Source: Trueperaceae bacterium (lineage in GTDB: Bacteria; Deinococcota; Deinococci; Deinococcales; Trueperaceae). From it: a stretch of 34,611 nucleotides of DNA. Location of the stretch: positions 1-34,611 of the forward strand of contig JAABRX010000036.1 of assembly GCA_011390675.1 (NCBI GenBank), in the 5' to 3' direction. Position 1 is the first letter of the stretch. Each line of letters starts with the position of its first letter. The translations under genes were made by a program, and so were the position numbers. The notes under the pieces are model-generated. The model saw nothing but the letters and a program-made list of their open reading frames with translations, was not told the origin of the DNA and did no database searches. Below are positions 4,198-8,008 of this stretch, in pieces.

Positions 4198-4915
4198 GGC
4201 CCGTCCGTTCGTCGTCTATCCCTGCGTCGACGTCCAGCGCGGCCGCGCCGTGCGGCTGCGCGAGGGCGACCCCGACCGCGAGACCGTCTACTTCGAGGAC
4301 CCCCGCGCCGCTGCCGCCCACTGGGTCGAGCTGGGCGCGCGCGACCTGCACGTGGTCGACCTCGACGCCGCGATCGGCACCGGCGACAACCGGGCGCTCA
4401 TCGCGGAGGTCGCGGCCGCGTCCGCCGCCGCCGGAGCGCGGGTCGAGGTGGGCGGTGGGATCCGCTCGCGCGCGGTGGCCGACGCCTGGCTGGCCGCCGT
4501 CCACCGGGTGGTGCTCGGCACGGTCGCGGTGACCGACCCCGACCTGGTGGCCGCCCTCGTCGCCGACTACGGTCCCGATCGGGTCGCGGTCAGCGTCGAC
4601 GCGCGCGCCGGCAAGGTGGCCGTGCGCGGCTGGAAGGAGACCAGCGCGGTCGATGCGGCCGAGCTCGCGGTCGCGATGGCCGAGCGCGGCGTGCGGCACT
4701 TGATCTACACCGACGTATCCCGCGACGGCACCTTGCAAGGGGTCGATCCGGAGCCGGTTCGGGCCATGCGAGGGGCCTTCCCGCACGTGCTCGTCGCCGG
4801 CGGCGGCGTCGCGGTCGATGCCGACCTCGACCTGTACGCCGCCCTGGACCTCGACGGCGCGATCGTGGGGCGGGCGCTCTACGAGGGGACGGTCCGCTAT
4901 CCCCGAGCTCCCTGA
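4190..4915 (+). CDS. hisA: ProFAR isomerase (HisA) of histidine biosynthesis
   Basis: HisA converts N'-(5'-phosphoribosyl)formimino-AICAR ribonucleotide to its ribulosyl form, the fourth step of histidine synthesis. The 241-residue TIM barrel shows the first catalytic aspartate in [16 protein letters not shown], the phosphate loop VEVGGGIRS, the second catalytic aspartate in [14 protein letters not shown], and the second phosphate loop VLVAGGGVA. HisF is related, but HisF begins with a K-R-I-I-P-C-L-D motif and is somewhat longer, so HisA is the better call. The ATG at 4190 overlaps the antiporter end by 8 nt, and the stop lies 17 nt inside mutM. No other his gene is present, so the histidine genes are scattered in this genome. 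Confidence 0.9.
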
Positions 4916-5792
4916 GGTCGAGACCGTCCGACGCGAGCTGGCGCCGTGGCTCACCGGCCGCACCGTGCGCGCCGTGGAGCGCGTCGACGCGCCGCTCGGC
5001 CCCAAGACCGCGCTCCTGGAGCGCGCCGTGGGGCAGCGGATCGCCGCCGTGGAGCGGCGCGGTAAGTTCCTGACGCTGCCGCTCGTGCGCTCGCCGTCGG
5101 CCGTGCCGGCCGACGTGCTCGTGCTCCACCTCGGCATGACCGGCGTGTTGGGTCCGCGCGAGCCCTCCGCCCACCTCCGGGTGCGGTTGCGGCTCGATGG
5201 GCCCGATCCCGACGTCCTCTTCGTCCAGGACGCGCGCCGTTTCGGCCGCTGGCTGGTGCTGCCGGACGGCGACCCCGTCTCGCTGCCGACGCTGGCCGCG
5301 ATGGGACCGGAACCGTTGGGCGCGGGCTTCACCGTCGCGGGGTTCGCCGCGGCGCTGGCGCGCTCGCGCGCGCCGGTCAAGGCGCTCGTGCTGTCGCAGC
5401 GGCCGGTGGCCGGCGTCGGCAACATCTACGCCGACGAGGCGCTGTGGCGCGCGCGCGTCCACCCGCTCACGCCTGCCGCCGACGTGCCGCGCGCCAAGGT
5501 CCGCGCCTTGCACGGCGCGATCCGCGACGTGCTGGCGGCCGCGGTCGAGGCGCAGGGGACCACCCTGTACGACTACCGGACGGTGAACGGCGAGGTGGGC
5601 GCGTACCTCGAGCAGCTCGATGCCTACGGGCACGACGGCGACCCGTGCCCGCGCTGCGGTGCGCCGATCGTCAAGCTGGTGGTGGCGCAGCGCGGCACCC
5701 ACGTGTGCCCGCGCTGTCAGCGCGCTCCGCGGGGCGCACGGGCCCCGATCCGAGGACCCGCCCGGCGCCGAGCGCCCGAGGCCGGTCGATGA
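4899..5792 (+). CDS. mutM: Formamidopyrimidine-DNA glycosylase (Fpg/MutM), apparent ATC start
   Basis: Fpg removes oxidised purines such as 8-oxoguanine and nicks the abasic site. The protein shows [13 protein letters not shown] at the N-terminus (catalytic Pro and Glu), the DNA-contacting Lys in RRGKFLTLPL, LHLGMTGVL, the VAGVGNIYADEALW helix, and a C-terminal zinc finger CPRCGAPIVK...HVCPRCQR. The enzyme needs a free N-terminal proline, normally exposed by removing Met from MPELPEVE. Here the codon before the proline is ATC (4899-4901), not ATG. The nearest in-frame ATG is at 4818, and no GTG or TTG start lies between. GAGGGG at 4883-4888 is well placed as a ribosome binding site for 4899. 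The tail after the zinc finger is long and basic (297 residues in total). The start overlaps hisA by 17 nt. Confidence 0.88.
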   Translation: MPELPEVETVRRELAPWLTGRTVRAVERVDAPLGPKTALLERAVGQRIAAVERRGKFLTLPLVRSPSAVPADVLVLHLGMTGVLGPREPSAHLRVRLRLDGPDPDVLFVQDARRFGRWLVLPDGDPVSLPTLAAMGPEPLGAGFTVAGFAAALARSRAPVKALVLSQRPVAGVGNIYADEALWRARVHPLTPAADVPRAKVRALHGAIRDVLAAAVEAQGTTLYDYRTVNGEVGAYLEQLDAYGHDGDPCPRCGAPIVKLVVAQRGTHVCPRCQRAPRGARAPIRGPARRRAPEAGR

Positions 5793-6274
5793 GCGCGACC
5801 GAGGGTGCGGCCGCCCCGATCGTCCACGCCACCCCGGTGCCGGTGCGCTTCGGCGACACCGACCGCTTCGGGCACGTGAACAACGCGGCCTTCGCCACGT
5901 ACGTCGAGACCGCTCGGATCGCACTGATCACGTCGCTCGGCTACCCGTTGGGCGGCATGATCCTCGCGCACCTGGCGATCGACTACCGCAGGCAACTGCA
6001 CGTCGGCGACCCGCTGGTGGTGCTCAGCCGGGTCGCGTCGATCGGTCGCACGTCGATCCGCCTGATGCACGCGCTGGTGCGCCCCGACGACGCGCGCCTG
6101 GCGCACGGACCCGGGCACGACGTGCCCATGGCCGAGGCGCCCACCGGCGACCGGATCGCCGACGTGGCGAGCGTGATCGTGGCGTTCGACTACGCGGAGG
6201 ACCGTCCGGTGCCGGTCCCCGAGTCGCTCCGCACGCGCCTGGCCCCGTACGTCGGTTCGCTGCCGCCTGCCTGA
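5789..6274 (+). CDS. Hot-dog fold acyl-CoA thioesterase (4HBT family)
   Basis: This 161-residue cytoplasmic protein has the single hot-dog fold pattern of 4-hydroxybenzoyl-CoA thioesterase and YbgC relatives: VPVRFGDTDRFGHVNNAAFA, with the Asp in GDTD acting in catalysis in characterised members. It continues with YVETARIALI and LAHLAIDYRRQLHVGDPL. Such enzymes hydrolyse acyl-CoA thioesters; the substrate cannot be read here. About 30 residues near position 105-135 (from GHDVPMAEAP) are an insertion relative to the shortest members. The ATG at 5789 overlaps the mutM stop (ATGA), so the two are translationally coupled. It is the last gene of the 2297-6274 run. Confidence 0.83.
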   Translation: MSATEGAAAPIVHATPVPVRFGDTDRFGHVNNAAFATYVETARIALITSLGYPLGGMILAHLAIDYRRQLHVGDPLVVLSRVASIGRTSIRLMHALVRPDDARLAHGPGHDVPMAEAPTGDRIADVASVIVAFDYAEDRPVPVPESLRTRLAPYVGSLPPA

Positions 6275-6365
6275 CGGCGAGCGCCGCTCGTGTAATCCGC
6301 GTCCAGCATGGGGATTCCGCATCCGGAGCGGGACGAATGTCCCGGCCGGAAGCGACGCCGGGCGG

Positions 6366-6658
6366 TACGCTAGGGCTGCACGAAGAGGTGGCTAGCGTAC
6401 CGATTAGATCGCTCCGGAACCCCGGAGGGTCGAGAAGGCACCCCACCCCACGTGCCGCCATCGGAGGCGTCGCCCTCTCCCGCTGGAGCGTGGAAGCGTT
6501 TGCTCCGCGGGGCCAAAAAGGGAAGCGAACGTCGGCAGCAGACACCGGGATGGGCCCGGTGCGGGGCGAACCCCGATGGCGTGATCGTTCAGGCGGGACG
6601 CACGAGGCACTCCGCGTCCCGTAGACCCGACCCCGCGGCGCGTACGGCCGCGGGGTCG
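6366..6658 (+). ncRNA. Structured RNA gene candidate with own promoter and terminator, class unknown
   Basis: The gap between two convergent protein genes contains TACGCT (6366-6371), the window's usual -10 box, giving a transcript start near 6378. The transcript would end at the hairpin 6628-6658. Between them many helices are possible: CTCCGG/CCGGAG (6412-6427, 4-nt loop), GGCAC/GTGCC (6437-6456), CGTTTGC/GCGAACG (6497-6503 with 6525-6531), CACCGGG/CCCGGTG (6543-6561), GGGG-CGAA-CCCC, and CGGGACGC/GCGTCCCG (6594-6621). A perfect 9-bp long-range pairing, CGCCATCGG (6456-6464) with CCGATGGCG (6573-6581), closes the middle part. I do not find the conserved cores of RNase P, tmRNA, SRP RNA or common riboswitches. 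The 6275-6365 stretch before it shows only a small GGGAC/GTCCC hairpin (6331-6343). Confidence 0.5.
6628..6658 (+). terminator. Strong GC hairpin, transcription terminator
   Basis: CGACCCCGCGGC and GCCGCGGGGTCG form a perfect 12-bp stem around a 7-nt loop (GCGTACG). It lies between the RNA candidate and the convergent MFS gene and could stop transcription from both sides. The following GTTTG is only weakly T-rich. Confidence 0.65.
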
Positions 6659-6682
6659 GCCGTTTGGTGCGCACGAACGCGG

Positions 6683-7945
6683 TCAGCCGGCCGTCGCCGC
6701 TTGCCGCGGGGTCCGCAAGCGCAGGGCCACGGCGACGGCGAGCGCGAGCGGCAGCGGCACGAGCAGCCAGAGCGCCGGTCCGTACCCTCCGAGCAGCGGC
6801 GCGCCCAGGGCCAGCAGCACGGGTCCCGCGCCCGCGCCGCCCGCCGAGAGCGTCTGCGCCGTCCCCTTGATCCCGCCGATCGCGGCGCGTCCGAACAGCC
6901 GCGCGAAGAGGCTCCCCGACACGACCCCCATCAAGCCCTGGGTGACGCCGAGCACGACGCCGTAGAGCGCCAGCGTGGCGGGGCCGACGACGCTCGCGGC
7001 AGCCAGGCAGGCGGCCTGAAGCACCAGCATCGCCACCACCGGCACGCGCGGGTCGAGGCGGTCGATCAGGGCGCCGGCACCGACGTTCGTCGCGGCGACC
7101 ACCAGCGCGAACGGCGCGAACACCGCCGCGGCCGCCGCTCGGTCGATGCCGCGGGTCGCCATCAGGTCGAAGTGGTGGAAGATCAGCCCCGTTCCGAGCC
7201 CGCTGAGGAGCGCGACGCTCCCCGCGAGCAACCAGAAGGCCGCGGTGCGGCGCGCCTCGGCGGCGGTGAAGGTCGGTTCGTCGACGACCACCTGCACGCC
7301 CTTCGCCTTGCGGCCATCGGGCAGCTGCCCGAAGCGCTCCGGATGGCCCCGGTAGAACGCGAGCCCGAGCGGCAGCGCCGTCGCCGCGATCAAGGCGCCG
7401 AGCAGCGCGTAGGCCGTTCGCCAGCCGAAGTTGGCGATCAGCATCTCGATCAGCGGAGGGAAGCTCGCGGTCGCGACGGCCATCCCGATCCCGGTGAGGC
7501 CGACGGCCAGCGCTCGGCGGCGGACGAACCAGACGTTGATCACGTGCAGGCTCACGAGCCCGAGCGCGCCCTGGCCGAGGCCGCGCAGGAACACGAAGCC
7601 GATCGCCAATCCGACCAGGGTCGTCACCGTCGACAAATATACGCACGCGAGCGCGAGCCCGGCGGCGATCCACCCGACCGCCAGCCGCGGCCCGCGGCGG
7701 TCGATCGAGCGCCCGACCCACGGGAGCGTGAGGGCACCGGCAAGGGTGCCGAGCGTGTACACGAGCGAGACGCTGGCGCGCGTCGTCCCCAGGTCGTCGA
7801 TGATCGGGTCGAGGAAGACCGAGACCCCCACCGTCTGGGCCGGCGTCGTCATCATCAGCCCGAGCGTGCCCGCCACGAGGACCACCCACCCGTAGTAGAC
7901 CGGCGAGCGCTCGATGGTGCGGGAGCGGAGCGGGGCGTCGGGCAC
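6683..7945 (-). CDS. MFS transporter
   Basis: This is a 420-residue inner-membrane permease with about twelve hydrophobic segments in two halves. The start VYYGWVVLVAGTLGLMMTTP with an early YGW resembles the oxalate/formate and monocarboxylate-type MFS branch. A loop motif WVGRSIDRRGPR lies after the second segment, and the second half repeats it as GALIDRLDPR. A hydrophilic loop (about residues 190-215) separates the halves. The substrate is unknown. I choose the GTG at 7945 over a longer ATG at 7972 because TACGCT (minus strand, 7957-7952) lies exactly 6 nt upstream. The gene follows the cysteine-rich regulator by 63 nt on the same strand and may be controlled by it. Confidence 0.85.
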   Translation of the reverse strand: MPDAPLRSRTIERSPVYYGWVVLVAGTLGLMMTTPAQTVGVSVFLDPIIDDLGTTRASVSLVYTLGTLAGALTLPWVGRSIDRRGPRLAVGWIAAGLALACVYLSTVTTLVGLAIGFVFLRGLGQGALGLVSLHVINVWFVRRRALAVGLTGIGMAVATASFPPLIEMLIANFGWRTAYALLGALIAATALPLGLAFYRGHPERFGQLPDGRKAKGVQVVVDEPTFTAAEARRTAAFWLLAGSVALLSGLGTGLIFHHFDLMATRGIDRAAAAAVFAPFALVVAATNVGAGALIDRLDPRVPVVAMLVLQAACLAAASVVGPATLALYGVVLGVTQGLMGVVSGSLFARLFGRAAIGGIKGTAQTLSAGGAGAGPVLLALGAPLLGGYGPALWLLVPLPLALAVAVALRLRTPRQAATAG

Positions 7946-8008
7946 GGGTCGAGCGTACGCCACCGGCCGCACCTGCCGCCGCGCCGACGCCCGCCGGCGC
8001 GGGTGTCG

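Follow-up and report, generated by a model that had tools for sequence, protein, structure and literature searches.

Among the closest described counterparts of the locus reported here is DrrS (MTS1338), a standalone and highly structured RNA of Mycobacterium tuberculosis with a DosR site at its promoter, the site lying 34 bp upstream of the transcription start where it overlaps the -35 (PMC5360333). The DosR box has been given as TTGGGGACTAAAGTCCCTAA (PMC5999986) and as GGGACTTNNGNCCCT (PMC6448022), its half-sites being GGGAC and GTCCC around a 4-bp centre, and the DosR/DevR and OsdR regulons of Actinobacteria include redox-related genes (PMC6448022, PMC5069765). A further counterpart, by functional analogy only, is RoxS/RsaE of Firmicutes, a small RNA that is controlled by a two-component system for respiration and NO and acts on redox metabolism (PMC4409812). 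The small RNAs found described for the Deinococcota come from stress studies of Deinococcus radiodurans, and no paper on a small RNA of the Trueperaceae was found in the open-access literature. Among standalone structured RNAs of bacteria there is also 6S RNA (RF00013), which folds into one long hairpin opened by a central bubble.

The locus described here represents a new and narrowly distributed RNA family that is found only in Trueperaceae (Deinococcota). It lies in the window, which is the whole stretch of DNA analysed, 34,611 nucleotides long, and which is one whole contig of a draft genome of 3.49 Mb; the sole Rfam match in the window is the first 125 bases only of a 23S rRNA gene at the contig end (34488-34611), so the contig breaks at a ribosomal operon. 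The non-coding stretch sits between the end of a thioesterase gene at 6274 and that of a convergent MFS gene at 6683 (Table 1). Like DrrS it encodes a standalone, highly structured RNA with a DosR-like site at its predicted promoter, but it is about 280 nt long, multi-domain and closed by a terminator hairpin, whereas mature DrrS is 108 nt and is processed from a longer transcript without an intrinsic terminator (PMC5360333). The host of DrrS belongs to another phylum and no sequence relation between the two RNAs is expected. RoxS, in contrast to the Trueperaceae RNA, is much smaller and acts via C-rich segments, and 6S RNA, whilst also standalone and structured, differs from it in architecture and in taxonomic range.

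Table 1. Features of the RNA locus and of the neighbouring genes, in positions of the window.
Feature	Position	Strand	Evidence and remarks
mutM/fpg, formamidopyrimidine-DNA glycosylase (approximate start)	4905..5792	+	Pfam PF01149, PF06831, PF06827; tblastn: upstream landmark at 11/11 homologs
4HBT-type acyl-CoA thioesterase (start estimated)	5789..6274	+	PF13279, E 3e-20; tblastn: in g1 and g15, not g12
Palindromic operator-like box CGGGACGAATGTCCCG, core GGGAC-N4-GTCCC	6329..6344	.	Identical (100%) in G001 and G004
-10 box TACGCT	6366..6371	+	Conserved in 11 homologs as TANNCT (TATGAT in G026), at a fixed distance from the palindromic box
Structured non-coding RNA, ~280 nt, with G6378 taken as the probable +1 and the terminator as the probable 3' end (about 6660)	6378..6662	+	Fold z; covariance-model matches in 11 Trueperaceae genomes; covariation
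5' domain: P1 6378-6381/6452-6455, P1b 6387-6391/6443-6447, P2 6407-6417/6422-6431	6378..6455	+	Alignment A8
Central branched domain: P3 6456-6464/6573-6581 (long-range), extension 6470-6476/6563-6569, enclosing P4 6479-6489/6502-6511 and P5 6543-6549/6555-6561	6456..6581	+	RNAalifold; A10 counts
P6 hairpin, 9-bp stem, region GCGGGACGC ... GCGTCCCGT	6593..6622	+	Fold z = -3.06; as CGGGATGC/GCATCCCG in G001 and G004
Terminator hairpin, 13 bp (6627-6639/6647-6659), loop GCGTACG, weak T tail CCGTTTGG	6627..6659	+	88-100% identity among congeners
MFS transporter, monocarboxylate-transporter-like, convergent to RNA gene	6683..7972	-	PF07690, E 4e-33; NF049980 below cut-off

An earlier note on this DNA, made from the letters alone, had failed to match the stretch to RNase P, tmRNA, SRP, 6S or common riboswitches, and the searches agree: at gathering score no Rfam 15 family matches the locus, a permissive scan of it returned only E-values of 0.56 and 1.8, far under the gathering scores, and ARAGORN found nothing there. 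A covariance search for 6S RNA gave no match at the locus and none above cut-off anywhere in 39 Trueperaceae genomes, and given the latter result the 6S RNA of the family may be strongly diverged or lost. The arrangement of a cis-acting leader or riboswitch was not found either, as the RNA closes with its terminator hairpin facing the convergent gene, which together with the synteny, conservation and covariation set out below upholds the view of that note that the RNA stands alone between convergent genes and is the leader of neither.

The range of the RNA was determined in 111 Deinococcota genomes, 39 of them Trueperaceae and 72 others. A DNA search finds the stretch in three congeners and in one genome of another genus, whilst covariance models of the 5' domain (R1) and of both domains (R2, R3) find it in 11 of the 39 Trueperaceae genomes, as a single copy in one syntenic place each time, and in none of the 72 other Deinococcota, which bears out the suggestion that the RNA is lineage-specific. 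It occurs in three of the 17 genera, being present in four of five genomes of g1, six of seven of g12 and one of two of g15, where the genome without a detectable copy (G018) is 96% complete. The absence of the RNA from G002 and G029 is no evidence of loss, because the homologous MFS gene in these genomes reaches the end of the contig stretch or comes within 57 bases of it. At every homologous locus mutM is immediately upstream, with the thioesterase gene in between in two of the three genera, and the MFS neighbour is convergent at most loci, with the locus of G024 cut by a contig end and that of G026 keeping the RNA without an MFS gene. Several of the relatives that carry the locus apparently come from soda-lake sediment samples, judging by isolate names. 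Weak R1 and R3 matches in other genera (E 0.02-0.9) were taken as chance; an exact pattern search gave matches within the family in g1 only, and for three exact pattern matches outside it (Armatimonadetes, Ancrocorticia and Prevotellaceae) the full model was not matched.

The RNA has a conserved secondary structure of four domains, with a 5' hairpin domain that stands apart, a branched domain and a pair of hairpins on the 3' side, and this structure is held by compensatory changes. Its fold energy of -155.1 kcal/mol, against -134.5 +/- 5.4 kcal/mol for dinucleotide shuffles (z = -3.84), beats 200 of 200 of them. The perfect 9-bp long-range helix that had been seen in the single sequence is exact (CGCCATCGG with CCGATGGCG), and relatives show double-sided changes at five of its nine pairs. 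In ten sequences 89.8% of the pair cells are standard, as against at most 46.6% with slid partners, double-sided changes are seen at 14 pairs and a covariation score of 0.264 exceeds all 500 shuffles, these figures leaning upwards because the structure was partly derived from the same sequences and the alignment was fitted to it. In the 5' domain 88.9% of cells are paired, as against at most 46.7%, with six double-sided pairs, and a check of the central domain with RNAalifold, on a MAFFT-based alignment of five sequences, also gives nine. For P2 the alignment undercounts covariation because of register shifts, and the sequences themselves show that its upper stem has been swapped wholesale between genera (CTCCGG/CCGGAG, CTCGCG/CGCGAG, CCTGCG/CGCAGG). 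The 5' domain also contains an internal loop that is conserved and rich in purines, GATTA (6402-6406) opposite GAGAA (6432-6436). The terminator hairpin proposed earlier is real and well conserved, although its stem is one pair longer than the 12 bp then given and its T tract is weak, because of which a stringent terminator scan omits it.

Conservation is confined to the RNA and its control elements. Relative to congeners, identity is 27-40% upstream of the palindromic box, 100% (two genomes) or 69% (one) in the box, 32-38% in the spacer between box and -10, 64-81% in the RNA domains and 88-100% in the terminator, and falls to 28-40% in the 31 bases past it. The box, which lies just outside the stretch covered by the earlier note and is absent from it, is present at 11 of 11 homologs (degenerate in G003), 22-23 bp ahead of the -10, and the -10 in turn is 5 nt from the RNA domain in 10 of 11. 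The remark of the earlier note that this -10 exactly matches the boxes of neighbouring genes is weak, since TACGCT occurs nine times in the window as against 5.4 +/- 2.3 in shuffles. No recognisable -35 is present in the RNA promoter. With the start taken at G6378 the centre of the box comes to about -41.5, where the site of a class II activator would lie. The RNA gene has what are, by sequence, conserved promoter elements and a terminator of its own.

The same motif, GGGACRAAYGTCCC, is found in 25 of the 39 Trueperaceae genomes (G000-G004, G015, G035, G061, G010 and G022 among them), with up to 12 copies in each, 2-12 per g1 genome, and recurs in most g12 genomes too, while a reversed-pattern control is near zero. 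The genes flanking it were called by codon-position G+C and then clustered (example loci are L050, L082, L056, L111, L146, L171 and L176). The largest cluster is an NDH-2-like oxidoreductase (12 loci, PF07992), followed by a multiheme cytochrome (nine loci; PF14522, QrcA-related below cut-off) that is read as probable ActA of alternative complex III, and by CtaA (five loci, PF02628). Sulfite dehydrogenase, CoxB, copper nitrite reductase and MauG-like di-heme proteins, all below NCBIfam cut-offs, are single or paired flanks, and superoxide dismutase and persulfide-dioxygenase-like proteins were recognised by eye. The motif marks what looks like an undescribed respiratory and redox regulon of the Trueperaceae. 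The RNA would be an optional member of it, since the motif occurs much more widely than the RNA does.

The placing of the motif relative to -10-like hexamers falls into two classes, with many of the sites being orthologs and the counts therefore not independent: in one the hexamer is 23-26 bp downstream of the motif (22 of 89 flanks, with a peak of 12 at 25), in the other it is about 15-17 bp upstream (peak of seven at -17). The first class contains actA, nine of nine at exactly 25, and the RNA gene, the second most g12 NDH-2 loci, which suggests both activation and repression by one regulator. The arms of the motif equal the DosR half-sites, but the 4-bp centre differs, being RAAY, and the genes are those of the respiratory chain instead of the dormancy genes of the actinobacterial regulons. 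NarL/LuxR-type proteins occur in four of four genomes tested, two of which are without the motif, with the NarL-type candidates of G004 at loci L123, L131, L135 and L142, and since none of these proteins is assigned to the motif, DosR-like here means resemblance, not membership.

The reading that is preferred, with a probability of about 0.6, is that this is a standalone, multi-domain regulatory RNA that a DosR-like regulator of respiration switches on and that acts in trans. A regulator of the NarL type would bind GGGAC-N4-GTCCC at about -41.5 and would recruit RNA polymerase to a promoter that has a -10 box and no recognisable -35. The RNA would then be made together with alternative complex III, with NDH-2 meanwhile being repressed through a box over its start, and would act in trans, with base pairing or the binding of a protein as the probable mechanism, on a second layer of respiratory or redox genes, as RoxS does in Bacillus and DrrS may do in Mycobacterium. 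Of all this, the RNA gene with its structure, conservation and range, the box with its constant spacing and the recurrence of that box at respiratory genes are shown, and transcription, the regulator, the direction of control and the action in trans are deduced. As the same control site lies before the RNA and beside respiratory-chain genes, the RNA is probably a previously undescribed regulator of respiration, with the operator tying it to a predicted respiratory-chain switch. The locus offers an RNA family supported by covariation, a promoter that can be tested and a complete predicted redox regulon; if the reading is true, the parallel with DrrS and RoxS would suggest that the coupling of RNAs to respiration regulators has arisen repeatedly.

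Counting against this reading are the size and elaborate fold of the RNA, which exceed those of most small RNAs that work by base pairing, the wider spread of the motif, the occurrence of NarL/LuxR-type proteins in genomes without the motif and the lack of a detectable copy in G018. It is conceivable, if somewhat doubtful, that the RNA works without plain antisense pairing, by binding a protein or a redox-linked ligand through its conserved internal loop and its branched domain, and would then itself be an effector of the change between respiration through NDH-2 and through alternative complex III on a deep branch of the Deinococcota. It is unlikely that the RNA is structural or protein-binding, for instance a 6S-like RNA that has diverged strongly, with a promoter that lies in the respiratory regulon by chance and with a protein or RNA polymerase, rather than an mRNA reached by pairing, as its target; its size, its several domains and its purine-rich loop would fit such a role, as would the lack of a recognisable 6S RNA in the family, but its four-domain fold is not the one long hairpin of 6S RNA, no Rfam model matches it even permissively, and so patchy an occurrence among the genera is unlike that of a housekeeping RNA.

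Two further explanations deny that there is an RNA gene of its own. The mutM-thioesterase operon could have a long, structured 3' UTR here, or the MFS gene an antisense 3' region, with termination and mRNA stability as its function and no independent transcript; the constant place of the stretch just behind mutM is in keeping with this, as is a terminator hairpin that the converging MFS transcript might use as well. Set against it are the conserved -10 and box, at fixed spacing and separated by unconserved sequence, that follow the upstream gene and precede the RNA, and the persistence of box and RNA where the thioesterase gene (g12) or the MFS gene (G026) is missing, and this origin is considered quite improbable. 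That the stretch encodes a small protein or is the remnant of a mobile element is hardly credible: some frames do stay open at the high G+C of about 70% (78 codons in G000), but none does so in every homolog, G035 and G061 are without any closed ORF, substitutions are compensatory for pairing, and each genome has a single copy in one syntenic place.

Two arrangements of the motif away from the RNA gene may also be mentioned. At L075 (G000:C228, about 20466) it is flanked by a response-regulator-like gene on one strand and a periplasmic-binding-protein-like gene on the other, with the response regulator a candidate autoregulated member. Before a SulP-type transporter gene at L061 and L067 the motif is followed directly by a -10-like TAGGAT and has a second, related palindrome, GGGACATCCGTCCC, ahead of it in a tandem arrangement.
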